Position numbers and translations under genes: made by a program. Shown here piece by piece: positions 47,098 through 64,000 of a stretch of DNA of 64,000 bases. This DNA is from Alteromonas sp. IB21 (GTDB taxonomy: Bacteria; Pseudomonadota; Gammaproteobacteria; Enterobacterales; Alteromonadaceae), in the NCBI RefSeq assembly GCF_016405965.1, contig NZ_JAEFCD010000022.1, positions 1 through 64,000 on the forward strand. Direction: 5' to 3'. Below the pieces are notes generated by a model that saw nothing but the letters and a program-made list of their open reading frames with translations, was not told the origin of the DNA and did not search any database. Positions within the stretch are counted from its first letter, which is position 1; every line of letters starts with the position of its first letter.

Positions 47098-47517
47098 TTA
47101 AGCCGATTTAGGCTTCAACCAATGCTGCGCCAGCATGCCAACGATCATAGCACCTACAAACAACAGCACATCAGCTTGAAGTGAGGCGATAGCTACCACA
47201 GCAGGCCCTGGGCAAAAGCCGCTGATACCCCAACCAATACCGAAAGCGGCAGACCCCAGTATTAACTTAGCGTCGATAGTTGTGCTGGTTGGAATATCAA
47301 ACTTATCGGCAAACAAAGGCTTGTTGCGCTTGCGCACCCAATACATACCTGGTGCAGCCACCAAAATAGCACCGCCCATTACGAACGCTAACGTGGCATC
47401 CCAATTGGCGCTTAAATCTAAAAAGTTAAGCACGCGGGCAGGGTTGCTCATACCTGATATCAGAAGGCCTAAGCCGAACAACAGTCCACAAATTAGTGAG
47501 GCGATAATGACTCTCAT
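47098..47517 (-). CDS. YeeE/YedE family (DUF6691) sulfur transport protein, second half
   Basis: 139 aa with four membrane helices. Contains GLLFGLGLLISGMSNPARVLNF and GIGWGISGFCPGPAVV; the SGFCPGP Cys motif is a hallmark of the YeeE fold, which imports thiosulfate in YeeE itself. It is the partner half of the preceding yeeE-like gene, 21 bp upstream. Together they likely move a reduced-sulfur species; direction unproven. Confidence 0.87.
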   Translation of the reverse strand: MRVIIASLICGLLFGLGLLISGMSNPARVLNFLDLSANWDATLAFVMGGAILVAAPGMYWVRKRNKPLFADKFDIPTSTTIDAKLILGSAAFGIGWGISGFCPGPAVVAIASLQADVLLFVGAMIVGMLAQHWLKPKSA

Positions 47518-47538
47518 GGTTTTTCTCCTCCAATAAAT

Positions 47539-47967
47539 TTACAGATGTCTGATGATTGTGGTGGTAATGACAGCCGCACACATGAACGTGAGCGTGGCAA
47601 CAATAGAACGGGGTGATAACCTTGAAAGGCCTGCTACACCATGGCCCGACGTGCAGCCAGAACCAAGGCGTGTACCAAAGCCTACTAGTAAGCCTGCTAC
47701 TACCAACCACGCCGACCCCATCTGAGTTTGTACCTGCATGCCACCGGTAAACGCAATATAAAGTACGGCAGACAAAACAATGCCTGCTAAAAATGCCAGC
47801 CGCCAGTAACGTTCCGAGCCTTGTTGCGTCATTGCGCCTGCTGCAATACCTGAGATGCCTGCTATACGACCAAGCGTATATAGCAGCAATACCACCGACG
47901 AGCCGATAAGCAGTCCGCCTGCCAAACCGGCAAATGGCTCAAAGGGGGTTGATGTCCAGTTTTCCAA
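47539..47967 (-). CDS. YeeE/YedE family sulfur transport protein, first half
   Basis: 142 aa, four membrane helices. [21 protein letters not shown] at the N-terminus and [19 protein letters not shown], the conserved GCTSGHG Cys motif. In YeeE the repeated Cys motifs pass thiosulfate along a Cys relay. Paired with the next gene, and preceded by the Rrf2 regulator gene 88 bp upstream on the same strand, so regulation by it is likely. Confidence 0.88.
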
Positions 47968-48055
47968 TTTCCTCTCCTAAATCTACCCGCGCGATGCCCA
48001 AGTTAAATGACGCTATCGCGAATAAACACAGTACAAATAGAAGCCTTAAAAACTT

Positions 48056-48508
48056 CTACTCAACTTCTATAAAATCGATGGCAAGGTGCATCGCTAATGC
48101 ACCCTCTCTGTCTTTAACCAAGTCATGAAGCGTGAATTGATCAAGCTCGCTTATGAATTTATCCGCAGCGTCTTGAAGAATTGTCTTCAAGCGACATGTT
48201 GGCGAAATAACGCATTTATTCGTTGGCGATGCAAAACACTCAGCTAACGCTACATCTTCAACAGTTAATCTAAAAACCTCGCCTATGTTTATTAGGTTGG
48301 CTTCTTTCGCCAACCGAATGCCGCCACCGCGCCCTTTCGTACCAATGATATATCCCTGGTCAATTAGCAAAGTGATGACCTTTTTTAAGTGATTGAAAGA
48401 CACAAAGTACGCGTCTGCTATTTCACTGGTCTTTACAGTTTGGTTTTTGCGTAGCGCGAGATAGATCAAAACACGAAACGCTAAATTAGTAAAAGTATTG
48501 ATTTTCAT
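48056..48508 (-). CDS. Rrf2 family transcriptional regulator with [2Fe-2S]-type cysteines
   Basis: 150 aa from the ATG at 48508 (MKINTFTNLAFRVLIYLAL); a longer in-frame start adds 12 unrelated residues. Winged helix with TSEIADAYFVSFNHLKKVI and KGRGGGIRLAKE, typical of NsrR-like Rrf2 proteins. Cys91, Cys99 and Cys105 (C-x7-C-x5-C) match the cluster-binding region of NsrR/IscR, though the first gap is longer. Lies between the yeeE pair and the divergent TSUP-PDO-SQR operon, so it is the obvious local sulfur or NO/redox regulator. Confidence 0.87.
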   Translation of the reverse strand: MKINTFTNLAFRVLIYLALRKNQTVKTSEIADAYFVSFNHLKKVITLLIDQGYIIGTKGRGGGIRLAKEANLINIGEVFRLTVEDVALAECFASPTNKCVISPTCRLKTILQDAADKFISELDQFTLHDLVKDREGALAMHLAIDFIEVE

Positions 48509-48567
48509 GGGATATCTAAAAAAACGATTAACGTAATCTAGCAATTTTACAGCACCCTGAAAATTAA

Positions 48568-48588
48568 ATATATATTTAGAATATACTT
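48568..48588. promoter_or_regulatory. AT-rich palindrome upstream of the TSUP-PDO-SQR operon (candidate Rrf2 operator)
   Basis: ATATATATT-TAG-AATATACTT lies 60 bp from the Rrf2 start and 50 bp from the TSUP start. It is closely similar to the perfect palindrome upstream of cydA (59695). The shared half-site AATATACWT and location in a divergent regulator/target spacer fit an autoregulated operator. Confidence 0.55.
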
Positions 48589-48637
48589 TATTGTATATTT
48601 TGTTCTATCATATAACAAAATGAAATAAGGTGTCGAT

Positions 48638-49438
48638 ATGATTATTCTTGGCTACATCGCTGCTGTTCTTATGGGAATGGTTTTAGGCGTAATAGGTGGA
48701 GGGGGTTCTATCCTCACCGTGCCTATCCTCGTTTACTTAATGGGCGTCACGCCAGATATCGCTACCGGCTATTCTTTGCTTATTGTGGGTGCCACAGCCG
48801 CATTCGGCGCGGTAAGGTATTTCAAAGAAGGTCTAGTAGACGTTAAAGCGTCTATTTTATTTGCCGTGCCTTCCATCATTGCTGTTTATCTTTCAAGGGC
48901 CTACCTAATGCCCGCCATTCCCGAAACTATTTCTTTTCAATCGCTAACCATAGATAAGAACCTGGGCATCATGGTGCTCTTTGCTGCACTGATGTTGGCC
49001 TCGGCCGCCATGATGTTGAAAAAGGCTTACAGCAAATCGGGCCCGGTAGCAGATGTCGTTGAGAAAAAACAACCTAACGTAGGGTTGATAGTTATTGAAG
49101 GCGCAGTGGTGGGAGTTATCACCGGCATACTCGGCGCGGGTGGGGGCTTTCTTATTATACCTGCTTTGGTACTTATTTTAGGCATGCCCATGAAAAACGC
49201 GGTGGGCGCGTCTTTATTCATTATCGCCTTAAAGTCGTTACTTGGCTTCATTGGCGACCTACAAACCGGAATTCAATTGGAGATGCCTTTGCTGCCGCTT
49301 ATGTTGGTAGCCACGTTTATTGGGATGGCAGTCTCCACGAAGGTAGCGGGAAAACTAGACGGTGCAGCTTTGCAGAAGTTCTTTGCATTTTTCACTCTAG
49401 TTATTGCCGTTTTTATCATGACCAAAGAGCTTCTTTAG
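48638..49438 (+). CDS. TSUP (TauE/SafE) family sulfite/organosulfur exporter
   Basis: 266 aa with about eight membrane helices. The two repeats start GVIGGGGSILTVPILVY and GILGAGGGFLIIPALVL, the TSUP signature. TSUP proteins export sulfite or related anions. First gene of the TSUP-PDO-SQR operon (10 bp before the dioxygenase), so it probably removes sulfite formed by persulfide oxidation. Confidence 0.9.
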   Translation: MIILGYIAAVLMGMVLGVIGGGGSILTVPILVYLMGVTPDIATGYSLLIVGATAAFGAVRYFKEGLVDVKASILFAVPSIIAVYLSRAYLMPAIPETISFQSLTIDKNLGIMVLFAALMLASAAMMLKKAYSKSGPVADVVEKKQPNVGLIVIEGAVVGVITGILGAGGGFLIIPALVLILGMPMKNAVGASLFIIALKSLLGFIGDLQTGIQLEMPLLPLMLVATFIGMAVSTKVAGKLDGAALQKFFAFFTLVIAVFIMTKELL

Positions 49439-49448
49439 GAGAACACCC

Positions 49449-50303
49449 ATGAACGTTGAAACATTTTACGATAACAAAACGGCCACGTTTACCTACGTGC
49501 TATTCGACCCCGCTTCCAAAGAGTGTGGCGTGATAGACTCGGTTGCTGACTACGATATCTTTTCGGGTCGCGCGTCAATGGAAAGCGCCGACAAAGTTAT
49601 CGACTTCATTAACCAAAACCAGCTTACTAATAAGTGGATTCTAGAAACCCACGTACACGCCGACCACATTACGGCTGCGCACTACTTAAAGTCTATAATT
49701 GGCGGCAAAATTGGTATTGGCTCAGGTATTAAAACGGTGCTAAATACCTGGCTAGATGTATTTGAAACGGCCAATGACACGCCAAGCGATGGCAGTCAGT
49801 TCGATGTGCTGTTCGAAGAAGGCGACACGTTCAATATCGGCGAATATGAAGTGACAGTATGGCATACGCCGGGGCATACCCCAGCCTGTGCAAGCTTCTT
49901 AGTAGACGGCAAAATATTTGTGGGCGACACCATGTTTGCCCCCAACTTAGGTACAGCACGATGCGACTTCCCGGGTGGCAGTGCAGAGCAACTTTACAAC
50001 ACCATTCAGCGCTTCTTCACCCTGCCTGACGACACCACTGTTTATCTTGGTCACGACTATCCCAAAGAAGGTACAGCGCCGCTATCAACAGTATCTATCA
50101 AAGAAGCCAAGGAAACGAACAAGCAAATTCGCCCAGAAGTTACGCTTCAGGAATATGTGGAAAAACGCGAGGCAAGAGATGCAACCCTTGCGGTACCCAA
50201 ACTACTGTTACCCGCTATTCAAGCAAACCTTCGAAACGGCCAGTTTGGCGAAAAATCTGAAGGCGGTAAGCAGTTCATTAAAATTCCTGTAAATGCCATT
50301 TGA
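49449..50303 (+). CDS. Persulfide dioxygenase (ETHE1/Blh-type metallo-beta-lactamase fold)
   Basis: 284 aa. The metal motif is intact: H68-V-H70-A-D72-H73 in ETHVHADHITAA, then WHTPGHTPAC and VGDTMFAPNLGTARCDFPGG with further ligands. This class uses one iron to oxidise glutathione persulfide to sulfite. The gene sits between the TSUP exporter and the SQR fusion, which provide the export and the persulfide. Confidence 0.92.
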   Translation: MNVETFYDNKTATFTYVLFDPASKECGVIDSVADYDIFSGRASMESADKVIDFINQNQLTNKWILETHVHADHITAAHYLKSIIGGKIGIGSGIKTVLNTWLDVFETANDTPSDGSQFDVLFEEGDTFNIGEYEVTVWHTPGHTPACASFLVDGKIFVGDTMFAPNLGTARCDFPGGSAEQLYNTIQRFFTLPDDTTVYLGHDYPKEGTAPLSTVSIKEAKETNKQIRPEVTLQEYVEKREARDATLAVPKLLLPAIQANLRNGQFGEKSEGGKQFIKIPVNAI

Positions 50304-50314
50304 AGGGGTGAGTT

Positions 50315-51988
50315 ATGCAATACGCCAACGTAACACAACAGCTATCTGTCTGCCCTCAAATTTCAGTTGATGACATCGAGGTAATCAAAGCAGCAGGGTT
50401 CAAATCTATTATTTGTAACCGCCCTGACGGTGAAGGTGCAGACCAGCCCACCTTTTCTGAAATAGAAGCAAAAGCATCCTTATTGGGCATGCCCTGCGTG
50501 TATCAGCCAGTAGTTAGCGGAAAAGTAACTCAGCAAGACGCAATAAAATTTGAAGCGAACTTACAAAAGCTAGAAGGCCCGGTATTTGCCTACTGCAGAA
50601 CAGGCACGCGCTCTATTACGCTATGGGCAATGACCGCAACCAAAACCCTTTCTTATGAAGAGATACTCGGTCTTTCACAAAAAGCCGGCTACGACCTAAG
50701 CGGGGTAGTGCGACGCCTAAAAAACGGCGGCGAAACGCCCAGTGATCATGCCGATCACTCTCATGCTGTAGTGATAGTAGGGGCTGGCGCGGGTGGTGTT
50801 GCCGTAGCATCAAGTTTGAAATCGCGATGCCCAGATTTAGATATCGCCATAGTAGAGCCCAATGAAGTGCACTACTACCAGCCTGGCTGGACGTTAGTAG
50901 GCGGTGGCGTATTTAACGCCAACGACACGGTGCGCACCGTAGCGTCTGTGATACCAAACAACGTTAGGTGGATAAAAGCCGGCGTAGCGGCCTTTGCGCC
51001 AAAAGAAAACATGATTGTGGTAGACGGCTGCCGCACCATTAAATACGAACACCTAGTGGTTTGCCCCGGCATTAAGCTAGATTGGAATAAAGTGGAAGGC
51101 TTAAGTGAAACCCTGGGCGAAAATGGTGTGACGTCAAACTACCGTTTTGACTTGGCGCCCTACACATGGGAATTGGTGAAAAACCTTAAAAAGGGAAAGG
51201 CGGTATTTACACAGCCGCCAATGCCAATTAAGTGTGCAGGTGCGCCGCAAAAAGCCATGTATATGTCTTGCGACCATTGGTTTAAAGAAGGCGTGCTAGA
51301 TAACATTAACGTTGAGTTCTACAACACGGGCGCCGTACTTTTTGGTGTAAAAGAATACGTGCCGGCACTTATGGAATACGTCAAAAAATATCACGCAACG
51401 CTCAACTTTGAACACCAGCTGGTGAAGGTTGATGGCAAAGCAAAAGTGGCTTCATTTAAAAAGGTGGCAGACCCAGACGCCCCGCTTGTTGAAACTGAAT
51501 TCGACATGCTGCACGCGGTTCCGCCCCAGTCTCCGCCAGACTTTATAAAAGTTAGCCCGCTTGTAGATGGTAACGGTTGGATTGATGTCGACCAATCAAC
51601 GCTACAGCACAAGTCGTTCCCCAATATCTTTGCCCTTGGCGACGCCATAAACGCCCCTAATGCTAAAACAGCCGCTGCGGCGCGCATGCAAGCCCCGGTG
51701 GTTGCCAATAACTTGCTTTACGAGCGCGGTGTACAAACAGATAAAGCCATTTACAACGGTTATGGCAGCTGCCCGCTCACTGTAGAACGCGGCAAAGTGA
51801 TATTGGCTGAATTTGGCTATGGCGGGAAAATACTTAACAGCATGCCAACGTGGGTACTCGATGGCACGAAGCCGTCGCGCCTAGCATGGTATTTAAAAGA
51901 AAAGTTGCTGCCCCCCATTTATTGGGAAGGTATGCTAAAAGGCAGAGAGTGGCTGGCTAAACCAGAAACACAGCACGTTAATAAATAA
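50315..51988 (+). CDS. Fusion of DUF442 phosphatase-like domain with type II sulfide:quinone oxidoreductase
   Basis: 557 aa. Residues 1-110 form a DUF442/TIGR01244 domain (VCPQISVDDIEVIKAAGFKS) ending in the Cys-phosphatase-like loop C94-R-T-G-T-R99-S. Residues 150-557 form an FAD oxidoreductase: dinucleotide motif VVIVGAGAGG, IKCAGAPQKAMYMSC with Cys307, LGDAINAPNAKTAAAA, and GYGSCPLTVERG with Cys486. Cys307 and Cys486 match the two catalytic cysteines of human-type SQOR. Oxidises sulfide and passes electrons to quinone, probably making a low-molecular-weight persulfide for the dioxygenase encoded 11 bp upstream. Confidence 0.92.
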   Translation: MQYANVTQQLSVCPQISVDDIEVIKAAGFKSIICNRPDGEGADQPTFSEIEAKASLLGMPCVYQPVVSGKVTQQDAIKFEANLQKLEGPVFAYCRTGTRSITLWAMTATKTLSYEEILGLSQKAGYDLSGVVRRLKNGGETPSDHADHSHAVVIVGAGAGGVAVASSLKSRCPDLDIAIVEPNEVHYYQPGWTLVGGGVFNANDTVRTVASVIPNNVRWIKAGVAAFAPKENMIVVDGCRTIKYEHLVVCPGIKLDWNKVEGLSETLGENGVTSNYRFDLAPYTWELVKNLKKGKAVFTQPPMPIKCAGAPQKAMYMSCDHWFKEGVLDNINVEFYNTGAVLFGVKEYVPALMEYVKKYHATLNFEHQLVKVDGKAKVASFKKVADPDAPLVETEFDMLHAVPPQSPPDFIKVSPLVDGNGWIDVDQSTLQHKSFPNIFALGDAINAPNAKTAAAARMQAPVVANNLLYERGVQTDKAIYNGYGSCPLTVERGKVILAEFGYGGKILNSMPTWVLDGTKPSRLAWYLKEKLLPPIYWEGMLKGREWLAKPETQHVNK

Positions 51989-52192: not shown

Positions 52193-52219
52193 GTAATGTG
52201 TATATGAAATATATATTAT
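52191..52219 (+). promoter_or_regulatory. Promoter with overlapping palindrome, in front of the possible small RNA
   Basis: TTGTAA (52191-52196), 17-bp spacer, TATTAT (52214-52219). The spacer contains the palindrome-like ATGTGTATA-TGA-AATATATAT (52196-52216), which matches the cydA and TSUP palindromes at 15 of 18 arm positions against the cydA site. Repressor bound here would cover the promoter. Confidence 0.45.
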
Positions 52220-52346: not shown

Positions 52347-52636
52347 AATTTCTCAATTGCACATATGGCCGGAGTAGATACGGTAAGTACAAGCGGGCAA
52401 GCGGGCAAGCGGGCAAGCCAGTTATAAGAGGCTTAACCGGTAACCGCGTGCGAGTGTTGCAAGATGGTGTGCCTCAGGACTTTCAACAGTTTGGAATTAG
52501 ACATGCACCAACCGTTGGCCCCGTTAATGCCTATAGAATTGATGTAGTACGTGGGCCTACGAGCGTTATTTTGGGGTTGGATGCATTAGGTATGGGTAGG
52601 AATATTCAGCTTAGCCTGTCGGCTCAACTTAGGTAA
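52347..52636 (+). pseudogene. TonB-dependent receptor remnant (plug fragment joined to last barrel strand)
   Basis: Translation gives AHMAGVDTVSTSGQAG, then after a frame change PVIRGLTGNRVRVLQDGVPQ and NAYRIDVVRGPTSVILG, the unmistakable plug domain of a TonB-dependent receptor. After LDALGMGRN it jumps to IQLSLSAQLR, which looks like the C-terminal strand. The rest of the barrel (hundreds of residues), the signal peptide and the start are missing. The frame change is caused by a third copy of an 8-bp repeat (52391-52414). Non-functional. Confidence 0.8.
52391..52414 (+). repeat. Three tandem copies of AAGCGGGC
   Basis: Exact 8-bp unit repeated three times within the TonB receptor remnant. 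With two copies the plug reads in frame (SGQAGKPVIRG); the third copy shifts the frame to a quick stop. Confidence 0.9.
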
Positions 52637-52642
52637 TTGATC

Positions 52643-53179
52643 ATGGATCTCGCTTTAACAAACAAAGATGACAGAACCACACTCTTGATCTTATCAATAG
52701 TGCTCGGTGTAGCAGCAACCGCCTTTTTAGACGCTGTGAACTATCTGCAACATATCGTCCTAGATAAGCCACTAACGCGGTATGAATTTATTGGGCGATG
52801 GGTTATTTATATGACAGACGGCGTATTTTCCCATGAATCAATTAAAACCGCGGAGCCGCGAAAGGGTGAATTACTGCTGGGGTGGTTTGGTCACTATGCG
52901 ATTGGCGTCGGGTTTGCTTTGCTTATGCTCATTTTTACCGGCGTTAAATGGGTGCTGAAACCATCTTTCTTGCCAGCGTTTATTGTGGGTTTTGCAACGT
53001 GCAGTATTCCTTTTTTCCTTATGTATCCAGGAATGGGATATGGTATCGCAGGCTTACACACACCTAACCCCGCCATGCTTCAGTCGAAGGTACTGTTATC
53101 CCATTTTATTTTCTCAGTTGGTCTTTATGCCGCAGGCTGGCTCTTAAGCAGGCGTATTCAAGATGCCAGTAATGAATAA
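52643..53179 (+). CDS. DUF2938 family membrane protein
   Basis: 178 aa from the ATG at 52643 with AGGTAA upstream. Four to five predicted membrane helices; VLGVAATAFLDAVNYLQH at the N-terminus, GWFGHYAIGVGFALLMLIF and GYGIAGLHTPNPAMLQSKVL are DUF2938 features. Function of the family unknown. It follows the TonB receptor remnant by 6 bp, so it may have lost its original promoter or operon partner. Confidence 0.82.
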   Translation: MDLALTNKDDRTTLLILSIVLGVAATAFLDAVNYLQHIVLDKPLTRYEFIGRWVIYMTDGVFSHESIKTAEPRKGELLLGWFGHYAIGVGFALLMLIFTGVKWVLKPSFLPAFIVGFATCSIPFFLMYPGMGYGIAGLHTPNPAMLQSKVLLSHFIFSVGLYAAGWLLSRRIQDASNE

Positions 53180-53254: not shown

Positions 53255-53740
53255 ATGAAAACGATACGCCTAAATTCACACCGCTTAGCTTTAAAGTACG
53301 GTTTCTTGTTACTGATATTGTCTGTTCAGGCGTTCTCCACAGACGCTTCAGAGCATGAACATAGTCCTAATCATGTCTCGTTATTTATCGGTCATACGGA
53401 TTTTTCTGAACATGGTAAAGGTGAAACAGTTGGTATCGATTACGAATACAGAGTTTCACCGTTATTAGGTTTAGGTAGTGTAGTGGAGTACGCATTTGGC
53501 TCATTAGACGCACTAACTGTGCTTGCAGTGGCAGATATACATCTCACCGATGAGTTTATTATTCAGGTGGGTCCTGGCTACGAGTACACCTCTGAACATG
53601 AGTTCTTTGTTTCACGACTAGGTGCCTTGTATGAATTTCGATATAGCGGGTATACCTTTTCGCCGCAATTTCATTTTGATTACCATGAGGGCGTTGGAAG
53701 TTCAAAGGTTGCTGGTTTGGCTGTTGGTTTCGACTTTTAA
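53255..53740 (+). CDS. Small exported beta-barrel-like protein of unknown function
   Basis: 161 aa with a signal peptide (hydrophobic core LKYGFLLLILSVQAFS, cleavage near STDA). After a His-rich start (SEHEHSPNHVSLFIGHTDFSEHG) come about eight amphipathic strands, ending GLAVGFDF with the aromatic terminus of outer-membrane barrels. Size fits a small OmpX/OmpA-like barrel. No specific family recognised. Follows DUF2938 by 75 bp and converges on cydC. Confidence 0.7.
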   Translation: MKTIRLNSHRLALKYGFLLLILSVQAFSTDASEHEHSPNHVSLFIGHTDFSEHGKGETVGIDYEYRVSPLLGLGSVVEYAFGSLDALTVLAVADIHLTDEFIIQVGPGYEYTSEHEFFVSRLGALYEFRYSGYTFSPQFHFDYHEGVGSSKVAGLAVGFDF

Positions 53741-53836: not shown

Positions 53837-55501
53837 TTACGCTGCAGATAAATCCACATTAAGCGAGCGATAATCAATACTTTGCTGCTCGATAAACAAG
53901 GGCACTTCATGAAGTAAAACAATAGATTTTCGTAACACCAGCCAAGGCAATATACGCATAAAGATGCGTTCGGCCATAGCGCTATCTAGGCCATTAAACG
54001 GCTCATCTAATACAATAAGCTCTGGGTTTCTAAGTAATAACCTAGCCAAACAAATACGCCTTGCCTGCCCACCAGAGACCTTTGCTCCACCTTCACCTAA
54101 CCAGGTATTCAATCCCTCGGGAAGTGAATCAGCCCACGCTTGTAGCTCTACTAGCGAAAGTACATCGAACACTCTATTGTCTTCTATGCTTTCAAGCCCC
54201 AACGTCAAGTTGTAGTACAAACTGCCAGACAATAACGAAGAGGTTTGCTCTAGATAGGCACAATGGCGATATAAGCTGTCTGACGAAATGTTTTGTACAG
54301 AAGTGTTATTTATCGCAACGCTAGCGTTCGATTTATCTAACGGTACAAGCTTGAACATAAGCTTGGCCAAGGTTGATTTGCCAGAGCCAGAGCGCCCTGT
54401 GATAAAAAGAGGGGTGCTATCACTCAAATTAAAGCTTATGGTGCGTGACGCACTCGCGGGAATATGTGGGTGATTGCTTATCGTGCAAGACACTTCGCTT
54501 ATCGCCGTGATATCAGAGCTATCGTTATCACTGCTTTCATTGGCCAAGGCTGATAATCGCTGACTTGCATAGTCGGTTTTTCCCCATGTACTGAACTGTT
54601 CTGGGGTAGTTTGTAGTAATTCAGCCACACCAATAAACAAAAGTGCCAACATGATAGCTGTTGGCCCCTCAATAATGTGTTGGTTTACAGCCCATAGGCT
54701 GGCATAAAGCGTAGCTACAAGCGCAATACCAAATATTGAATCGGTTACCACCTGAATTCGAGCAATACGTTTTTGCAAAATATTGTGATGTTGTTCAAAT
54801 TGCGAGAGTGCCTGGGTAGTATCTTGTGAGTGATAACTCATCAAATGCTGGCTATTGAGCACAAACGCGCCCTTGAGATGGCTAATCAATGTTTCTCTAG
54901 TGTGGTTTAGGTGCGAAATGGCTTGCGAAGCGGCACCTCTGGTTTGTCGTATCGAAAACAGTATAAGAAGCAACCACGCTAGTGTAGAAGCAACTAGAAA
55001 AACAATACCAAAATCAAACCAGATAAAGCACAAAAATAGGCTCACCACACCCAAAAGAAGCCCTGTGGCAAGAGTTGGAATGGTGTAGCGGATTAAGATG
55101 CTATCAAGGGCATCTAAGTCTGAGGTTAGCCGGCTTAACCACTCGCTGTCAGACGTTTGCCTAACATCGTGAAGTGGCTTATGGGAAAGCGCATTAAATA
55201 TCGTGACTCGATATGTCGCAATTAACCTTAGTATAGTGTCGTGATTGTATAGCCTTTCAATGTATCGGCCAATGGTTCGACTAAGCGCAAAATAGCGGAT
55301 CCCAGAGCCCGGCATATACATATCAAGCTTTACAATTAAACCCGCACCTATGGCTATTCCAGCTAACGCTGTGGCAGTAATAAGCCAACCGGAAAGCGCC
55401 AGCAACCCCACGCCAGAAAGCATGGTAAAAAACGACCAAAAGAGCCCAATTAGCAGGCGTTTACGCTCATTCTTAAAGATAATTGAAAACCAAAACTTCA
55501 T
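53837..55501 (-). CDS. cydC: Heterodimeric cysteine/glutathione ABC exporter subunit CydC
   Basis: 554 aa ABC exporter: six membrane helices then the nucleotide-binding domain with Walker [10 protein letters not shown], signature [17 protein letters not shown] and Walker [13 protein letters not shown]. With CydD it exports thiols to the periplasm, needed for assembly of bd-type oxidases. Last gene of cydA-cydB-cydD-cydC, 7 bp after cydD. Confidence 0.94.
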
Positions 55502-55508
55502 ATTACCG

Positions 55509-57200: not shown

Positions 57201-57202
57201 GA

Positions 57203-58204
57203 TTAATGATAACCAGCGTCGCCCACTTTTCCTCTAAATACCCAATAGGTCCAGCTGGTATAGGCTAATACAATAGGAATAACGAACAAGAAGCCTAACA
57301 ACAGGAACAGTTGCGAATTATAAGAAGAGGCGGCGTCGTAAATGGTAAAGTTTGGCGGAACAATATACGGCCATTTACTCACTAATAAACCCAAGTAGCT
57401 GAACAAGAATATACCCATGGTGGCAACGAAAGGCATGCCATCTTGCTGCTTTTTAACCGAACGAAACACCACATAAGCACAAAATAATACTAAAACCGGA
57501 AGTGCCCAAATAATGCTAATGCCTTCAAACCATCTGACCATTGCTGTGCTATCTACATAAGGCGTATAGAAAGACACCACACCAAATACAATAAGCAACG
57601 CGATAAGCAGTTTGGGCGTAATTTTGTATGCCCATTGTTGTACAGCACCATCTGTTTTCATAATGAGCCAGGTGCTACCAAGAAGCGCATAGCCTATAAC
57701 AAGACCAAAACCTGTTAATACGGTAAACGGCGTTAACCAATCAAGGGGGCCACCTGAGTAAGCAAATCCCTCAGTTTCGAAACCCTGAATATAGGCACCC
57801 ACTACCGCACCTTGCGCGAACGACGCAATGAACGAACCGATAGAAAATGAATAGCTCCATAGGTACTTAGAAGTTTTCGCCTTGAACCTAAATTCAAAGG
57901 CAACTCCTCTGAAAATAAGGCCAGCCAGCATTAAAAACACGCCAATATAAAGGGCGGGTAAAAAGACTGAATAAACTAACGGGAAAGCCGCAAGTAGACC
58001 TGCGCCCCCCAATACAAGCCATGTTTCATTGCCGTCCCATACTGGCGCCACCGAGTTCATCATTTTATCTCGCGCTTGTTCGTCAGGCGCGAAGGGGTAC
58101 AAAATGCCTTGGCCTAAATCAAAGCCATCCATTAGTACATACATCATGATCCCAAAACCAATAATGCCAGCCCAAATTAAGGTTAAATCAAATGTTGGTT
58201 CCAT
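57203..58204 (-). CDS. cydB: Cytochrome bd-type quinol oxidase subunit II (CioB-like)
   Basis: 333 aa with eight or nine membrane helices, starting FDLTLIWAGIIGFGIMMYVL. The MDGFDLGQGILYPF and GNETWLVLGGAGLLAAFPLVY blocks identify CydB/CioB. The length is that of CioB (about 335) and not E. coli CydB (379). 2 bp after cydA. Confidence 0.95.
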   Translation of the reverse strand: MEPTFDLTLIWAGIIGFGIMMYVLMDGFDLGQGILYPFAPDEQARDKMMNSVAPVWDGNETWLVLGGAGLLAAFPLVYSVFLPALYIGVFLMLAGLIFRGVAFEFRFKAKTSKYLWSYSFSIGSFIASFAQGAVVGAYIQGFETEGFAYSGGPLDWLTPFTVLTGFGLVIGYALLGSTWLIMKTDGAVQQWAYKITPKLLIALLIVFGVVSFYTPYVDSTAMVRWFEGISIIWALPVLVLFCAYVVFRSVKKQQDGMPFVATMGIFLFSYLGLLVSKWPYIVPPNFTIYDAASSYNSQLFLLLGFLFVIPIVLAYTSWTYWVFRGKVGDAGYH

Positions 58205-58206
58205 TT

Positions 58207-59604
58207 TTATAAGTCTCCGTCAATAGCCACGTGGCCAGCAGAAAATGGGCGGGCTGGACGTTCTACTTCATCCATTTCATGAGGAGCGTTAGCTTTTTCT
58301 AAGCCGCCTTTGAATACTTTCAGTAAGTAGTAAATACCCGCGCTGAATACCAGTGCGTATACCACCACATAACCAATTAAAGAGAATAGCGCCATGCCAC
58401 CGGTTAGCGAAGGCGTTAACCCTTCTGCGTGTGTCATTTGGCCATAAATAAGCCAAGGCGCTCTTCCAGCTTCAGTAACTATCCAACCTGCTAGAACCGC
58501 AAAGAACGGGCTGATGCTCATCAGTCTAAGGCCCTGTAAGAACACAGGTGATGTATAAATTTTGCCGCCTTTTCTATAAAAAAGCCCCCACACACCAAAC
58601 AACACCATCAGCAGTCCAAGCCCAACCATGACCCTGAATGACCAAAATACGACAAACACAGGCGGCTGTTCTTCTTTTGGCACTGCTTTCAATCCGGGCA
58701 CTTCACCGTCCCAGTCATGAGTTAGTATGAAGCTGGCTAACTTAGGAATTTTTAATTCAAAGTGGTTGGTTTGCGCTTCTTTATCTGGAATTGCAAAAAG
58801 GAGTAGGGGAACTCCAGTACTGGTCTCCCAGTTACCTTCCATAGCCGCAACTTTTGTAGGCTGATGTTTCATGGTGTTTAAGCCATGGAAGTCACCAACA
58901 ACCGTTTGAAGTGGTGCAAGGAATAATAAGAACCATAACGCTACCGACAGCGCTTTTTTATTCGCTTCCAGTTCACGTTTCTGCAAAATGAACCACGCAC
59001 TTACGCCTGCTACAACAAGAGCAGCAGTAAGGAAAGAGGCTAGGGCCATATGCGTAAAGCGATAACCGAAAGAGGCCGTAAATAATGCATCAGCCCAAGA
59101 TTTCACGTGGTAGATGCCGTCAATAAGCTCTAAGCCGTCTGGGGTTTGCAACAGTGAGTTGGCTGACAATATCCAAAATGAAGAGATAAACGTTCCTGTT
59201 GCCACCATGATAGCGGCAAAAAGGTGTACCCCTTGCGGTACTTTTTCTCGACCAAAAAGCAGAACGCCAAGAAACGCCGCTTCTAGGAAGAAAGCAGTAA
59301 TGACTTCGTAACTTAGCACAGGCCCTAAAAAGTTAGCCGTGGCATACGAGAAGTTACTCCAGTTAGTACCAAACTGGAATGACATAACAATACCTGAAAC
59401 CACGCCAATACCGAAAACAACGGCGAAAACCTGTATCCAAAATTTCGACAAACGTTGCCAGATGGGGTTTTCAGTTTTGAAGTAAAGTGTTTCAAATCCA
59501 GCAATAGTACTTGCCAGACCAATAGTAAACACTGGGAATATGGCGTGAAAACACACCACAAATGCAAACTGTATTCTCGACAGTACGAGAGGATCTAATT
59601 CCAT
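58207..59604 (-). CDS. cydA: Cytochrome bd-type quinol oxidase subunit I, short Q-loop (cyanide-insensitive type)
   Basis: 465 aa, shorter than E. coli CydA (522), the difference lying in the Q-loop, as in the cyanide-insensitive oxidase CioA. MELDPLVLSRIQFAFVVCFH places a heme His at residue 20. The bd signature reads GWIVTEAGRAPW instead of the usual GRQPW. Oxidises quinol and reduces oxygen without pumping protons. Bd oxidases resist sulfide, which fits the sulfide-oxidation genes nearby. Own promoter region of 154 bp containing the palindrome at 59695. Confidence 0.94.
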   Translation of the reverse strand: MELDPLVLSRIQFAFVVCFHAIFPVFTIGLASTIAGFETLYFKTENPIWQRLSKFWIQVFAVVFGIGVVSGIVMSFQFGTNWSNFSYATANFLGPVLSYEVITAFFLEAAFLGVLLFGREKVPQGVHLFAAIMVATGTFISSFWILSANSLLQTPDGLELIDGIYHVKSWADALFTASFGYRFTHMALASFLTAALVVAGVSAWFILQKRELEANKKALSVALWFLLFLAPLQTVVGDFHGLNTMKHQPTKVAAMEGNWETSTGVPLLLFAIPDKEAQTNHFELKIPKLASFILTHDWDGEVPGLKAVPKEEQPPVFVVFWSFRVMVGLGLLMVLFGVWGLFYRKGGKIYTSPVFLQGLRLMSISPFFAVLAGWIVTEAGRAPWLIYGQMTHAEGLTPSLTGGMALFSLIGYVVVYALVFSAGIYYLLKVFKGGLEKANAPHEMDEVERPARPFSAGHVAIDGDL

Positions 59605-59694: not shown

Positions 59695-59715
59695 ATGTAT
59701 ATTTTAAATATACAT
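59695..59715. promoter_or_regulatory. Perfect palindrome upstream of cydA (candidate Rrf2 operator)
   Basis: ATGTATATT-TTA-AATATACAT, two perfect 9-bp arms around 3 nt, 91 bp upstream of the cydA start. Similar palindromes occur at 48568 beside the Rrf2 regulator and at 52196. The pattern recalls NsrR-type sites (ATGTATTT-N-AAATACAT) but with two extra bases per half. Confidence 0.6.
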
Positions 59716-59758
59716 ATTGGTTTATGTGTTAACTATATTTAATGTTTTGTTGGGGCTC

Positions 59759-61024
59759 TCAAAAAGCATAGCTAGCCTGCAGATAGGCGTAACTAGTGAG
59801 TCGTTCGCCAGTGACCACTTTTCTGTTTAGATTGGCAAGCGCTATTCCTGACTCAAATTGCACGCTTTCAGCTATTTGGCTTCGAAAACGTAGCTCAGAC
59901 AGCGTACCTAGAAAGTCACCATTACCGAGTAATTCGCCGTTCAAACGACTTGAAACGCTACTTCGATGTATATCGAACGCACGTATCTGCATAAAAAGGT
60001 GATTGCGTTCATTTAATTGAATGTCAGACGAAACGCCCATCGATGCCATATTGCTGCGCGCAAATAAGCCAAAAATTCCTGTTGGCCCATACTCGAACCT
60101 TCTTGCACCAAACAGTGTGCTGAAACCTTCAAACGAGTCTGTTGACGTGTCATCACCCGATGCAAAATCATAAAACACATTCACGTTAGCTCGATTGAAC
60201 CTTGAAGATAGCGCTATGTGGAAAAAGTTAGCGCTAATGGGTTGTGATCGATAATCTCCGCGCTGTAAAGCTACTTCGTAATTTATACCTAATTGTTGTG
60301 AAAGTTTTATGTTGGCCAGATTACCGAAGGTTTGTCTTTGTGTTCTATTTAGTGAGTCTTGATCTTGAAGCCCATAAAATTCGACGTCACCAACAGATGT
60401 TTTTAGGCTTGCATGAATTCCATAGAAACGCACGTCTGAACTTGATGAGTCAAGCTCCCTATCATTAATGCTTTGATGAATATCTAAAGTAGGCTTTCGG
60501 GTAACAGGTAAGGTATAAAACGCTGTAATTGATAGGTTTGATAGAAAGGCATCAATTTTTACGCCGTCGAAGGTATTGAGCGTATTCCTGAATCTATTTC
60601 TGGCTATGAGGCGTCTGCTTCCCACGTCCATCGTGAACCGGCCTGCTTTTAACGCAATCGTTTCTAAATTTTCGTCGTCTACTACACCTCGCCAAGACGC
60701 AGCGAGTTGTACGGGCTCTAACGCATTAGAATCATCTGTACCCACTGGCGTATATTGGCCCTGTTTAAAAATCCGGCTGTCCATGAGTTCAGCCTCAAAC
60801 TGAAGTGGACCATATTGGTAAGCAGCATGTGTGGATATTCTTGTTACGACTGCATCGTCAGCTGCGTTAGATGCAGGCAATTGATTATTTACGTATTCGT
60901 ATCTAACCCGAACATTAGTCGTTATTCTAACGCTATGTTCGGGTGTTTTATTTGCTATTACAGTGTTAGGTAAGAATATGAGAACTAAACCCAATGACAG
61001 GGTAGAAAGCTTAACTAAAGACAT
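59759..61024 (-). CDS. Alginate-export-family outer-membrane porin
   Basis: 421 aa. Signal peptide ends VIANK; then SVRITTNVRVRYEYVNNQLP, a conserved LKAGRFTMDVGSRRLIARNRF strand and NTFDGVKIDAF, typical of the alginate_exp family, and FYDFASGDDTSTDSFEGFSTLF near residue 300. It ends ASYAF. The family includes exporters and general porins; a substrate cannot be read. Lies between the rhodanese and cydA genes on the same strand. Confidence 0.82.
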   Translation of the reverse strand: MSLVKLSTLSLGLVLIFLPNTVIANKTPEHSVRITTNVRVRYEYVNNQLPASNAADDAVVTRISTHAAYQYGPLQFEAELMDSRIFKQGQYTPVGTDDSNALEPVQLAASWRGVVDDENLETIALKAGRFTMDVGSRRLIARNRFRNTLNTFDGVKIDAFLSNLSITAFYTLPVTRKPTLDIHQSINDRELDSSSSDVRFYGIHASLKTSVGDVEFYGLQDQDSLNRTQRQTFGNLANIKLSQQLGINYEVALQRGDYRSQPISANFFHIALSSRFNRANVNVFYDFASGDDTSTDSFEGFSTLFGARRFEYGPTGIFGLFARSNMASMGVSSDIQLNERNHLFMQIRAFDIHRSSVSSRLNGELLGNGDFLGTLSELRFRSQIAESVQFESGIALANLNRKVVTGERLTSYAYLQASYAF

Positions 61025-61072
61025 TTTGCTTGAACTGCTGTCTCATCAGGTATCTCAACTGTACCGTGCACA

Positions 61073-61468
61073 TTAATGACTTAATGGCAGCTGTTTACGT
61101 TGCCACTCATCCATACCTCCGGCAACAGAAAATACATACTTATGGCCCATATCAGTTAACGATTTAGCCGCCAACGCAGACCGGCCGCCTGTCTTACAAA
61201 TTAGGTAAACACTGCGTTGCGCCAAGTCGTTAATTGCGTCCTGTTCCTCGCAATGATGGGCAAGAAGTGGGTGGCTACATATTTTTGCTTCAAGCATGCC
61301 TCTAGGAAAATTCACCGAGCCGTTAATGTGGCCGTGTTGGTATTCCTCACTTTCCCTAACATCAATCAAAATAACGTCTGGTTGGGTCAGCGCCACCATT
61401 AAATCGTCTACTGTAACTTCCTCAACCGCAGCTTTCACTTCGCTAATAAATACCTTTGGCGTTTTCAT
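61073..61468 (-). CDS. Rhodanese-like sulfurtransferase
   Basis: 131 aa, no signal peptide. ILIDVRESEEYQHGHINGSVNFPRG and the active-site loop VYLICKTGGRS, with the Cys in position and the following GGRS typical of a rhodanese phosphate-loop. The domain ends AGGMDEWQ. Follows the metallo-hydrolase gene by 8 bp, so one transcript: peroxiredoxin - dioxygenase-like - rhodanese. Likely moves persulfide sulfur. Confidence 0.9.
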   Translation of the reverse strand: MKTPKVFISEVKAAVEEVTVDDLMVALTQPDVILIDVRESEEYQHGHINGSVNFPRGMLEAKICSHPLLAHHCEEQDAINDLAQRSVYLICKTGGRSALAAKSLTDMGHKYVFSVAGGMDEWQRKQLPLSH

Positions 61469-61476
61469 CGTTCACC

Positions 61477-62340
61477 TCACAGTTGATTAATAGGCACTTT
61501 GATATAGCTAACGTTATTGCTTTCTGGTGGTGGTAACTCACCGGCTCTCACGTTAACTTGAATAGAAGGCAAAATAAGTCTGGGCATACTTAACGTCGCA
61601 TCCCGCGCTTCACGCATTTTTACAAATTCATCCTTTGAAATACCGTCTTTAACGTGAATGTTGTATTCCCGCTGCTCGCCAACTGTTACCTTACTTTCAT
61701 GTGTGCGATGTTGAGTGGGGTAATCATGGCAAACGTAGATATTGGTTTCTTCAGGTAATGCCAAAATACGATGTATGGAGTCGTACAGGGTAGTTGCGCT
61801 ACCACCGGGGAAATCACATCGTGCGGTACCCACGTCCGGCATAAACATTGTGTCACCCACAAACACCGACTCGTTATTAAGTAAATAGGCAATGTCTGCA
61901 GGTGTGTGCCCCGGTACATGCATAACCTCAAAGCGCATGTTACCCACTTCAAGAACCTCACCCTCTTCAAACAATCTATCGAATTGAGCACCGTTAGGTA
62001 AAAACTCTTTCTCTAAATTAAACAGCGCTTTAAATATTTTCTGTACTTCAGTAATGCGCGCGCCGATACCAATTTGGGTGTTATATTTGCGCTTAAAAAA
62101 TGGTGCGGCTGATAAGTGAGCAGCATGGGCATGGGTTTCCAAAACCCATTCTACTGAAAGCCCTCGTTCATCTACAAAGTCTGCAATTTTCTGTGCACTG
62201 GCGGTATGTACGCGGCCCGCGCTGTAGTCAAAATCTAATACCGGGTCGATGATTACCGCTTTTGAAGAAACTTTATCTTCAACTACATAGGTAAAGGTTT
62301 CGCTGTCATCGTCTAAGAAAGAAGTAATTTCAATATTCAT
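61477..62340 (-). CDS. Persulfide-dioxygenase-like metallo-beta-lactamase protein lacking the motif Asp
   Basis: 287 aa, homologous over its whole length to the dioxygenase at 49449. The metal motif reads H70-A-H72-A-A74-H75, so the Asp of H-x-H-x-D-H is Ala. VMHVPGHTPADIAY and VGDTMFMPDVGTARCDFPGG, which hold the other ligands, are intact. The mononuclear iron of ETHE1 is held by two His and one Asp outside this position, so activity may survive, but the change is unusual. Between the peroxiredoxin and rhodanese genes. Confidence 0.88.
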   Translation of the reverse strand: MNIEITSFLDDDSETFTYVVEDKVSSKAVIIDPVLDFDYSAGRVHTASAQKIADFVDERGLSVEWVLETHAHAAHLSAAPFFKRKYNTQIGIGARITEVQKIFKALFNLEKEFLPNGAQFDRLFEEGEVLEVGNMRFEVMHVPGHTPADIAYLLNNESVFVGDTMFMPDVGTARCDFPGGSATTLYDSIHRILALPEETNIYVCHDYPTQHRTHESKVTVGEQREYNIHVKDGISKDEFVKMREARDATLSMPRLILPSIQVNVRAGELPPPESNNVSYIKVPINQL

Positions 62341-62403
62341 GGTGATCTCCTAAATTTAGAATTAGGTGGCATGACTATCATGCCACCAATAAAAGCGTTT
62401 TAC

Positions 62404-63054
62404 TTACAGCGCTTTTTTACAGAAGTACCAGTCGACATAATTGTAGCCCGCAGACTCGCGACCTTCGGCATCTTCGATAGTGTGAGGAGGCGGTACAATC
62501 ACTTCTTCACCAACCTTCCAGTTTTCAGGGGTTGCACAGCTGTTTGCATCGCTGGTTTGTAATGCTTCAACTAGTCTTACAAACTCACTAACCGCACGGC
62601 CGTTGCTCATTGGGTAATACACCATGGCGCGAAGAATACCTTCTGGGTCGATAATGAAAGTTGCACGAACCGCAGACGTGTCGCTGGCACCAGGCTGAAC
62701 CATGCCGAAAGCCTTCGCTACTTCCATCGACAAGTCAGCAATGATTGGGAAAGGAATGGTTACGCCAAACTTCTCTTTAATATTGCGAACCCAAGCAATG
62801 TGCGAATGCGTGCTGTCGATGGAAAGGCCAAGTAGCTCAGTATTAAGTGAAGCAAACTTGTCAGCTGCATTGGCAAAACCAATAAACTCAGTAGTACACA
62901 CTGGCGTGAAGTCAGCAGGGTGAGAGAAAAGCACTAACCACTTGCCTTTGTAATCAGAAAGTGACTTTTCACCGTGCGTTGTCTTTGCACAAAAGTCAGG
63001 GGCAGGGCGGTTAAGTTGCGGGAAAGTTACGTTGTTTTGAATTTCTGTCGTCAT
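62404..63054 (-). CDS. 1-Cys peroxiredoxin (Prx6/AhpC-TSA type)
   Basis: 216 aa, peroxidatic Cys53 in HPADFTPVCTTEFIGF, the Prx6-type PVCTTE. LLGLSIDSTHSHIAWVRNIKE and FIIDPEGILRAMVYYP follow; a C-terminal extension fits the 1-Cys class. Reduces peroxides and possibly persulfide-derived oxidants. First gene of the peroxiredoxin - dioxygenase-like - rhodanese operon, with a GTGTA-N7-TACAC dyad upstream. Confidence 0.93.
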   Translation of the reverse strand: MTTEIQNNVTFPQLNRPAPDFCAKTTHGEKSLSDYKGKWLVLFSHPADFTPVCTTEFIGFANAADKFASLNTELLGLSIDSTHSHIAWVRNIKEKFGVTIPFPIIADLSMEVAKAFGMVQPGASDTSAVRATFIIDPEGILRAMVYYPMSNGRAVSEFVRLVEALQTSDANSCATPENWKVGEEVIVPPPHTIEDAEGRESAGYNYVDWYFCKKAL

Positions 63055-63078
63055 GATTAAGCTCTCTTTTGTTTAAAG

Positions 63079-63095
63079 GTGTATTTAACTTACAC
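63079..63095. promoter_or_regulatory. Inverted repeat upstream of the peroxiredoxin operon
   Basis: GTGTA-TTTAACT-TACAC lies 25-41 bp upstream of the peroxiredoxin start and resembles the NsrR half-site spacing (TGTA-N7-TACA). It differs from the longer palindromes near cydA and TSUP. Confidence 0.4.
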
Positions 63096-63188
63096 ATTTA
63101 ATGTATAGTGAGTTATGAGGTTTTTCTAATGTATTTTTTTGAATAGCTTCATCGGATTAATCGTTTAATGAAATTAATTAGGAATGAA

Positions 63189-63635
63189 ATGATGACAAAA
63201 TTTTTAAAAGCACTTGTTGTAGGAGCGCTCTTAGCTAGCGTTTCAGGCCTCGTTGAGGCAAAAGAGAGCGACTTAGTAGACGGTCTAGCAGTAGTCATTA
63301 CATCAGAAAATGAACAAGCTCAGATGATGGCCATGGTGCTATCGCTTCAAACGATAAAGGCGCATGGAAAAGAGGCACATATAACGTTATGTGGTTCTGC
63401 GGGCGATTTAGCACTAAGCAGCACTGAAACAAAACCGATGAAGCCAATGGACGCCTCACCGTCGATGATGCTTAAAAAGTTAATTCAGTTAGGCGCAAAA
63501 GTAGAGCTTTGCCCGCTTTATCTTCCTAATAAACCGGGTTCTGACAATGCACTAATAGAAGGAATTACCGTTGCTAAACCCGTTGAGGTTGCAGAGCGCT
63601 TACTAAATAGCAATTTTAAGAACTTAACGTACTAG
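63189..63635 (+). CDS. Exported DsrE-like protein
   Basis: 148 aa from the ATG at 63189, which has AGGA upstream (an earlier ATG at 63168 has no RBS). A signal peptide (cleavage near VEAKE) is followed by a DsrE-like fold: LAVVITSENEQAQMMAMVLS, HITLCGSAGDLAL, KKLIQLGAKVELCPLYLPN. Two Cys remain, in the places of sulfur-carrying cysteines. The DsrE fold often takes part in sulfur transfer, consistent with the neighbourhood. Divergent from the peroxiredoxin operon. Confidence 0.75.
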   Translation: MMTKFLKALVVGALLASVSGLVEAKESDLVDGLAVVITSENEQAQMMAMVLSLQTIKAHGKEAHITLCGSAGDLALSSTETKPMKPMDASPSMMLKKLIQLGAKVELCPLYLPNKPGSDNALIEGITVAKPVEVAERLLNSNFKNLTY

Positions 63636-63646
63636 TATAGCGAAAT

Positions 63647-63677
63647 GGAAGCCTTGGCTTATAGTTGCCAGGCTTCC
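63647..63677. terminator. Hairpin between convergent DsrE-like and TlpA-like genes
   Basis: GGAAGCC-(T)TGGC pairs with GCCA-GGCTTCC (one bulged T) around an 8-nt loop. T-runs are weak on both sides. Confidence 0.5.
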
Positions 63678-63679
63678 CC

Positions 63680-64000
63680 TTAATCACTGCTGTTGATAGC
63701 TTTTTTTCGTAAGGGGGCTAAGTAATATTGAAGGCTTGCCTCGGACAATTCGCCCATATGGCTGTCAACCAATTTACCGCCGGCATTAAAAAATAAGGTG
63801 GTGGGAAGCCCGAAAGCGCCTAACTCTTTTGCTGTGCTGCCAGTAAAATCAAAATATGTATTTTTCAAATCAATTTTTTGTTTGCCCAAAAATTGTCGTA
63901 CTTTACTCGGCGCTTCTCCCTGATTTACAAAAATATACTCTATGTTTACATCGTTTTTTTGCGCGTATTCCAACATTGGCATTTCTCGCCTACAAGGCGG
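63680..64000 (-). CDS. TlpA/ResA-like thioredoxin, 3' part (gene continues beyond the window)
   Basis: The open frame reaches the window edge. Beyond the first Met in the window it reads PPCRREMPMLEY, i.e. the end of a CxPC or CPPC redox motif, followed by FGLPTTLFFNAGGKLVDSHMG with the cis-Pro loop of thioredoxins (LPTT). A periplasmic thiol reductase of the TlpA/ResA family is likely; the N-terminus with its signal peptide lies outside. Converges on the DsrE-like gene. Confidence 0.85.
   Translation of the reverse strand, partial: PPCRREMPMLEYAQKNDVNIEYIFVNQGEAPSKVRQFLGKQKIDLKNTYFDFTGSTAKELGAFGLPTTLFFNAGGKLVDSHMGELSEASLQYYLAPLRKKAINSSD

Follow-up and report, generated by a model that had tools for sequence, protein, structure and literature searches.

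A predicted Rrf2-family switch over sulfide oxidation and a CIO-type bd oxidase in Alteromonas sp. IB21

In the literature cited here, as far as the available passages of each source go, sulfide-responsive regulators are of the ArsR, CsoR/CstR or FisR types. Acinetobacter baumannii has FisR and BigR operons, one with a persulfide dioxygenase (PDO), a sulfide:quinone oxidoreductase (SQR) and TauE, the other with YeeE-YedE and PDO2; its cydAB genes are induced by sulfide, and a link from SQR to CydAB through ubiquinone has already been predicted (PMC7315123). Here we describe a locus of Alteromonas sp. IB21 that combines such genes with a CIO-type bd oxidase and an Rrf2-family regulator. It occupies positions 47098-64000 of the first 64,000 nucleotides of contig NZ_JAEFCD010000022.1; 'the window' below means that whole stretch. 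The region looks like one regulon with a predicted common switch.

Parts of such a system are known from other bacteria. The bigR operon of Xylella and Agrobacterium has a DUF442 sulfurtransferase, a PDO, a TauE-type transporter and a sulfide-sensitive repressor (PMC5823870). Cupriavidus pinatubonensis has a DUF442-SQR fusion identical in kind to the one in the window, CRTGTR loop included, which was shown to pass on sulfane sulfur; since that loop has already been studied there, the fusion itself is known (PMC8533005). The bd oxidases encoded by cioRAB of Chromobacterium violaceum and cioAB of Pseudomonas aeruginosa permit growth in sulfide, nitric oxide (NO) or cyanide (PMC11837568, PMC10968556). 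A short Q-loop was shown for the C. violaceum enzyme (PMC11837568), and the P. aeruginosa CIO is insensitive to sulfide (PMC10968556). In Escherichia coli, the sulfide-responsive regulator YgaV (ArsR-type) is proposed to tie sulfide to bd oxidase expression, and cydAB read counts are raised in the mutant (PMC9774250).

A shared operator-like site

A 21-bp palindromic pattern, ANGTRYATTTNAAATRYACNT, was derived from intergenic regions with the window in view. Exactly four places in the 4.54 Mb host genome match it with at most two mismatches (48568, 52196, 59695 and 63077), all of them in the cluster and within 15 kb; 26 further places match at exactly three mismatches. Four units lie behind the sites: the Rrf2/TSUP-PDO-SQR divergon, the DUF2938 gene, cioAB-cydDC, and the peroxiredoxin-PDO2-rhodanese/DsrE divergon. 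The genome's best match is the cioA site. The list below gives the four sites together with the 18 proteins scanned across 47098-64000.

47098-47517, minus strand: YeeE/YedE half, DUF6691 (PF20398)
47539-47967, minus strand: YeeE/YedE half, Sulf_transp (PF04143, 36.8 bits; TsuA match weak)
48056-48544, minus strand: Rrf2-family regulator (PF02082, 108 bits)
48568-48588: operator-like palindrome between the Rrf2 and TSUP genes (2 mismatches)
48638-49438, plus strand: TSUP (TauE/SafE) exporter (PF01925)
49449-50303, plus strand: PDO1, persulfide dioxygenase-like (HxHxDH kept)
50315-51988, plus strand: DUF442 sulfurtransferase fused to type II SQR (TIGR01244; alignment, structure model)
52196-52216: operator-like palindrome about 420 bases upstream of the DUF2938 gene (2 mismatches)
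52637-53179, plus strand: DUF2938 protein (family match)
53255-53740, plus strand: small outer-membrane barrel-like protein (weak match only)
53837-55501, minus strand: CydC, thiol ABC exporter subunit (below the NCBIfam cut-off)
55509-57200, minus strand: CydD, thiol ABC exporter subunit (family match)
57203-58204, minus strand: CioB, bd oxidase subunit II (family match)
58207-59604, minus strand: CioA, bd oxidase subunit I with short Q-loop (PF01654, alignment)
59695-59715: operator-like palindrome upstream of cioA (0 mismatches, perfect 10-bp arms)
59759-61024, minus strand: alginate-export-type porin (family match)
61073-61468, minus strand: rhodanese (family match)
61477-62340, minus strand: PDO2, second persulfide dioxygenase-like protein (family match)
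62404-63054, minus strand: peroxiredoxin with a 1-cysPrx_C domain (PF10417)
63077-63097: operator-like palindrome between the peroxiredoxin and DsrE-like genes (2 mismatches)
63168-63635, plus strand: DsrE-like protein with a signal-like N-terminus, by eye (annotated homologs)
63680-64000, minus strand: thioredoxin-like C-terminal part of a TlpA-like protein (continues beyond the window)

Shuffles of the window gave 0.70 matches at up to three mismatches, and 0 of 100 reached the observed four. Because the pattern was derived with the window in view, matrices were rebuilt without it; these were applied to the window, to loci from some of the relatives and to a few pieces of the own genome. A matrix from eight relatives' sites (orthologous cioA, peroxiredoxin and Rrf2/TSUP positions) places the four cluster sites at the top of the 64-kb window, with 30.1, 24.0, 21.3 and 18.9 bits and 10.7 for the fifth; 200 approximate first-order shuffles of the window averaged 0.01 sites at 18.9 bits. 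A matrix from Rrf2/TSUP sites only (nine relatives' loci with five distinct sequences, one identical to the window's own site) puts the cioA site first in the window at 28.0 bits. A single Colwellia site used as a matrix also ranks the cluster's four first (13.2-19.1; fifth 11.1). We set aside an AT-rich chance motif as the explanation, since the relatives-only matrices and the lone Colwellia site recover the window's four.

The cioA site is also conserved in three other genomes of the genus. Our genus sample comprises 59 genomes including the own genome (G000), and window-type CioA, defined by at least 95% identity, occurs in four of them: G000, G013, G007 and G018. Upstream of cioA these have the site with 0, 0, 0 and 2 mismatches, respectively, as a conserved island amid diverged flanks. 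The site before the DUF2938 gene has one mismatch in G013, and was not seen at that place in G007 or G018. Joint regulation, which the sequence-only reading had anticipated, was checked as far as sequence allows: one operator-like site stands before all arms, the oxidase included. A site before every arm, the regulator's own among them, suggests a self-limiting repressor.

Upstream of the DUF2938 gene, a plus-strand frame at 52380-52636 resembles a TonB-dependent receptor plug with an outer-membrane-like tail (family by eye) and appears to be a remnant. A sigma70 promoter scan was uninformative (14 found vs 30.3 in shuffles).

Gene content and distribution

Every gene that had been named for these 17 kb is present in its place; additional genes encode the DUF2938 protein, the small outer-membrane-like protein and the alginate-export-type porin. 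The Rrf2 gene and the two YeeE halves lie on the minus strand, divergent from TSUP-PDO1-(DUF442-SQR) on the plus strand. After the SQR arm come the DUF2938 and small barrel-like genes (plus) and, 5' to 3' on the minus strand, cioA-cioB-cydD-cydC. In the distal part, peroxiredoxin-PDO2-rhodanese-porin is on the minus strand, with the DsrE-like gene divergent and the TlpA-like gene converging. SQR and PDO are accompanied by TauE- and YeeE-type transporters, as in bigR/cst/fisR-type sulfide operons. Among the 18 proteins there is no ArsR, CsoR or FisR persulfide sensor, and the sole regulator is Rrf2.

Roles of the single enzymes are predicted from their families. The SQR part of the fusion is nearest human SQOR (330 bits vs 82 bits for the next other protein), and human SQOR is the top structural match of its AlphaFold model (pLDDT 78.3, pTM 0.70; TM-score 0.86-0.88 by target length). 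Cys307 and Cys486 align with human SQOR positions that we take to be the redox-active ones, as we take the protein to be of type II, and both are invariant in 18 of 18 aligned fusions. The DUF442 domain scores 128.6 bits to TIGR01244 (cut-off 85.85), and Cys94 in its CRTGTR loop (CRTGTRS) is likewise invariant in the 18 fusions. The closest PDB matches are 9g8t for PDO1 and 4ysk for PDO2, with ETHE1 ranked lower in both cases. PDO1 has the metal-site motif HVHADH. PDO2 has HAHAAH, without the Asp, where G013, G007 and G018 have HAHADH; this is either a change in the window's genome or a sequencing error.

The thiol proteins are less clear. The peroxiredoxin had been called 1-Cys, which holds as a family label (PF10417 matches) but not as a count, as the protein has Cys22, Cys53, Cys173 and Cys212. 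For the DsrE-like protein, whose N-terminus looks signal-like by eye, the name draws on homologs: tblastn finds them in 14 plasmid records, and of the eight that were listed, two carry the annotation 'DsrE family', at 33.5 and 40.3% identity. However, the protein has no Pfam match, even at E 5, and no PDB sequence match at E 10. Its single-sequence fold model was poor (pLDDT 50.6), and a fold search with that model matched nothing. The TlpA-like protein, 280 aa long, combines a thioredoxin-like domain with a membrane part that weakly resembles LGT (23.4 bits against a cut-off of 24.9).

The assignment of the bd oxidase to the CIO type stands, since the Q-loop insertion of E. coli AppC (chain residues about 317-378) is absent. 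CioA scores 516.8 bits to PF01654 and is placed apart from three CydA rows in a tree of bd subunits. The His of VCFHAIF, the His of YRFTHMA and the Met of FWSFRVM align with E. coli residues and are presumably the axial heme ligands. CydC scores below its NCBIfam cut-off (290.9 vs 329.05). Over 53837-59604, identity between the window and G007/G018 is 67-70% for CydDC and 91-95% for CioAB, a gap that reflects unequal rates or a separate origin.

The Rrf2 protein probably carries an iron-sulfur (Fe-S) cluster on three cysteines, judging by alignment. These align with the cluster ligands of Streptomyces coelicolor NsrR, its closest solved relative, and are kept in all 18 aligned Rrf2 proteins, which come from loci with SQR or an SQR remnant. 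Their spacing is C-x7-C-x5-C, the first gap being two residues longer than in S. coelicolor NsrR. The likely start is an inner ATG, 12 codons in. The genome has one further Rrf2 match, IscR-like by eye.

Comparison of gene neighbourhoods in relatives, a check proposed in the sequence-only reading, came out in favour of the core cluster. In all four genomes with window-type CioA, this gene lies less than 7 kb from an intact SQR gene, and Rrf2, TSUP, PDO1, SQR, CioAB, CydDC, rhodanese, PDO2 and peroxiredoxin occur together. In two of the four, G000 and G013, the cluster also includes the YeeE halves and the DsrE/TlpA pair. The porin was not found in the G013 cluster and is a fragment in G018. 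Near full-length SQR matches occur in 6 of the 59 genomes, the copy in G034 having a stop at codon 474. At three loci (L051, L052 and L053, in G039, G001 and G038), the SQR part is lost and the DUF442 frame is open over 138-147 residues. One genome without any SQR match (G030) has a CioA 69-70% identical, with CydDC.

Decaying versions of the cluster were also seen. In Alteromonas sp. KUL42 (G034; L049, 8500-13200), SQR is interrupted by the stop at codon 474, PDO2 is split over two frames and the rhodanese is a fragment; CioAB-CydDC was not found at this locus. A decaying copy is also present in A. marina.

Related gene sets occur on plasmids, where ten loci were read among the 20 matches listed (114 records matched). 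On Paracoccus and Chelativorans plasmids, Rrf2, peroxiredoxin, CioAB, the YeeE halves, SQR, an MBL protein and rhodanese co-occur in divergons. Peroxiredoxin and CioAB make up one side, to which L140 and L145 add a DsrE-like gene and L144 a multicopper oxidase. The other side reads Rrf2-Crp/Fnr-DUF2892-YeeE-DUF6691-(PDO)-SQR-SulP-MBL-rhodanese (annotated in L140 and L142, partly in L144). L140 and L145 are identical in layout, the latter being unannotated and read by tblastn. An element of GTGACATTGTCAC type is conserved in the divergon promoter region, so plasmids probably use a different switch. A conserved stretch around GTGACATTGTCACCCAGC..TTGCAAAAAAGTTATA in the divergent peroxiredoxin/Rrf2 promoter (L140, 6048-6168) has matches with few changes in L142, L144, L145 and L065.

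Weighing the regulon reading

We consider it likely that the region is a small sulfide-survival regulon, in which an Rrf2 switch stands over sulfide oxidation and a sulfide-resistant quinol oxidase. What we observe is the gene content, the shared site and its conservation, and linkage both in the plasmid divergons and in four genomes of the genus; repression, the ligand of Rrf2, sulfide resistance of the window's CIO and electron flow from SQR to CIO we infer. The Rrf2-family repressor, probably an Fe-S protein, would occupy the 21-bp palindrome before the four transcription units until sulfide or a sulfide product altered it, releasing every unit jointly. SQR would then oxidize sulfide, passing electrons to quinone and sulfane sulfur, via the fused DUF442 domain, to thiol persulfides, which PDO1 and PDO2 would oxidize to sulfite. 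TSUP and the YeeE halves may transport sulfur species, and the rhodanese, peroxiredoxin and periplasmic thiol proteins may deal with the remainder. The CIO-type bd oxidase, a dedicated enzyme accompanied by a CydDC of its own, would drain the quinol pool once the heme-copper oxidases were poisoned. An electron sink of this kind for SQR had been put forward in the sequence-only reading; that interpretation is partly supported, and the shared operator-like site makes it firmer. We hold more tentatively, at somewhat less than an even chance, that an Rrf2 Fe-S sulfide or persulfide sensor and a private SQR-CIO route form a mobile module, assembled repeatedly with differing oxidases and switches in Alteromonas, alphaproteobacteria and plasmids.

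Several observations weigh against the regulon reading, and so do the gammaproteobacterial repeat and the near-relative pull in the next paragraph. Chance sites are common: at up to two mismatches, the reversed pattern matches twice in the own genome and averages 1.56 matches across the 59 genus genomes, and the 55 genus genomes without window-type CIO average 1.98 sites. From these counts, it is the position of the sites, not their number, that is unusual. In-cluster sites make up only four of six in G013 and three of seven in G007. With the Rrf2/TSUP-only matrix, the peroxiredoxin site ranks fourth, scarcely over the next window site (13.9 vs 13.5). No such palindrome, at up to four mismatches, was found in six Rrf2-bearing loci searched outside Gammaproteobacteria (L015, L019, L020, L064, L065 and L067). 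The YeeE halves and DsrE/TlpA were not found in the examined cluster stretches of G007 and G018. Intact SQR occurs without window-type CIO within 10 kb in A. gracilis (L008) and Alteromonas sp. a30 (L011), so CIO is not obligatory. Only 4 of the 10 plasmid loci read have CioAB (L140, L142, L144 and L145), and the six others (L059, L060, L061, L141, L143 and L146) have neither Rrf2 nor CioAB. Finally, bd-dependent respiration of gut E. coli is inhibited by sulfide, according to the available passages of PMC12452934.

Beyond the genus, linkage between SQR and bd genes is lineage-dependent. A phylum sample of 398 genomes has 54 SQR places, from which the window was excluded and the next best 40 by E-value were used, leaving aside the 13 weakest; their genomes have 44 bd subunit I genes. 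For COX1, 111 of 112 matches to PF00115, a family that also takes in NO reductases, were used, and one fragment under the cut-off was dropped. In favour of the regulon reading, SQR has a bd gene no more than 10 kb away at 8 of 40 loci, from six families (0.23 expected), and COX1 at 0 of 40 (0.61 expected); the expected counts ignore contig ends. The linked bd genes are found at 7 of 21 loci outside the window's own class and at 1 of 19 inside. A gammaproteobacterial repeat on 369 genomes (in the GTDB sense) had bd at 1 of 33 places and COX1 at 2 of 33. For this repeat, 33 of 36 places were fetched, G000 and the previously used G140 and G195 were excluded, and several places end at contig ends (580 kb in total); tblastn with queries from the own genome, rather than profiles, served to look for bd and COX1. 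These results reject SQR-bd linkage as a general proteobacterial rule; taken with the 7 of 21 loci, linkage in this sample is strong outside the own class but close to chance within it. In a pull of near relatives, 34 loci include three with bd genes, namely L009, L010 and, outside Alteromonas, the Kordiimonadales locus L019; COX1 was found in 0 of 34. L009 belongs to A. hispanica LMG 22958, which has the cluster without adjacent YeeE halves.

In a tree of 53 bd subunits, the SQR-linked rows fall in four separate parts: the Alteromonas clade; a clade of six linked rows and one unlinked row that includes the Kordiimonadales one; a C76-like CIO clade; and CydA. The linkage thus probably arose several times. 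A single lineage of SQR-linked bd oxidases was rejected on the same grounds, the four parts including two long-Q-loop CydA proteins. Two neighbouring arrangements were seen in passing. In G724, of the window's own class, L151 (10391-13703) has CioA and CioB about 80 bases after a PDO2-like gene, and a DUF442-SQR gene lies at a distance of about 3 kb. At L138 (G192:C12:21325-25646), one of the 13 weakest places of the phylum sample, CydA is 1.6 kb from a second SQR-like match, a distant one with 32% identity and one internal TAG.

The best-surviving alternative, which we find quite possible while leaning against it, is that CIO is co-induced as general respiratory protection, with SQR electrons undirected and any quinol oxidase serving. 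The quinone pool is common to the oxidases, the genome encodes three bd oxidases in total (two more than the cluster's own) and two PF00115 (COX1) proteins, and the intact SQR genes of L008 and L011 do without a window-type CIO. Against it, we compared the ten genus genomes whose SQR or SQR remnant led to an Rrf2-TSUP-PDO1 cassette: SQR is intact in 4/4 with window-type CIO vs 1/6 without (Fisher two-sided p 0.048), a weak association because the genomes are related.

It is unlikely that Rrf2 is instead an NsrR-type NO sensor, with the cluster answering NO or mixed NO and sulfide and CIO serving NO-tolerant respiration. NsrR is the top NCBIfam equivalog match, at 114 bits, and S. coelicolor NsrR is the top solved relative. 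CIO confers NO tolerance too (PMC10968556), and nsrR-hmp is induced by sulfide in A. baumannii (PMC7315123), as stated in the available passages. However, the score is under the NsrR cut-off of 182, the genome has no globin match and hence no recognised Hmp, no site beyond the cluster's four occurs in the genome at up to two mismatches, and the recognised metabolic genes behind the site suit sulfur and respiration. The RirA equivalog also scores under its cut-off (102.2 bits vs 193), and a plain NsrR or RirA was rejected on these scores and the lack of a globin match.

Quite unlikely, in our view, is a mosaic island of separately acquired modules that are adjacent without joint function. The patchy distribution, with porin, YeeE and DsrE/TlpA genes present or absent, would fit it, as would the lower identity of CydDC than of CioAB and the decaying copies in KUL42 and A. 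marina. However, the operator-like site is kept in diverged promoters, and plasmids carry a similar gene set in another order.

A cyanide-tolerance cluster, with CIO respiring in cyanide while rhodanese and DUF442 make thiocyanate, is very improbable: all three are present, DUF442 domains transfer sulfur to cyanide in vitro (PMC5823870) and C. violaceum owes cyanide resistance to CioAB (PMC11837568), but two PDOs, TSUP, the YeeE halves and SQR suit sulfide better, and no cyanide-degrading family turned up among the 18 proteins scanned.

Comparison with described systems

Searches of open-licence PMC literature found, among the matches listed and in the passages available, no report of an Rrf2 regulator with SQR control or of SQR-bd gene linkage. 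The main text of a survey of bd gene clusters (PMC5322542) has no words beginning 'sulfide' or 'SQR' (British spelling not searched).

The plasmid divergons are like the Alteromonas cluster in having a similar gene set, with CioAB and SQR flanking one promoter region. They differ in having an extra Crp/Fnr regulator and SulP, a different conserved promoter element and, in the stretches read, no annotated CydDC. These versions suggest that sulfide-tolerant respiration is mobile as a unit.

Within the passages available, the described systems compare with the Alteromonas cluster as follows. A. baumannii uses a sigma54 activator and an ArsR-type repressor rather than Rrf2; its cydAB genes lie elsewhere by locus tags, and no shared site is described (PMC7315123). 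YgaV of E. coli is of the SqrR/BigR (ArsR) type, with about 150 targets and no SQR-PDO-oxidase cluster (PMC9774250). In the bigR operon, DUF442 is fused to PDO, whereas in the window it is fused to SQR; the regulator type also differs, and no bd oxidase is described (PMC5823870). For the Cupriavidus fusion, neither an oxidase nor an Rrf2 regulon is described (PMC8533005). Control of cioRAB in C. violaceum is of MarR type (PMC11837568), and no tie to SQR or PDO genes is described for the C. violaceum or P. aeruginosa oxidases (PMC11837568, PMC10968556).

In the window, a regulator of an Fe-S family with a sequence-defined switch appears to govern both sulfide oxidation and a dedicated oxidase, with which the host could go on respiring oxygen during sulfide clearance. 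The question of sulfide regulation is now testable in a cultured marine bacterium. What is new relative to the known sulfide clusters is a predicted Rrf2 switch that covers a dedicated CIO as well.

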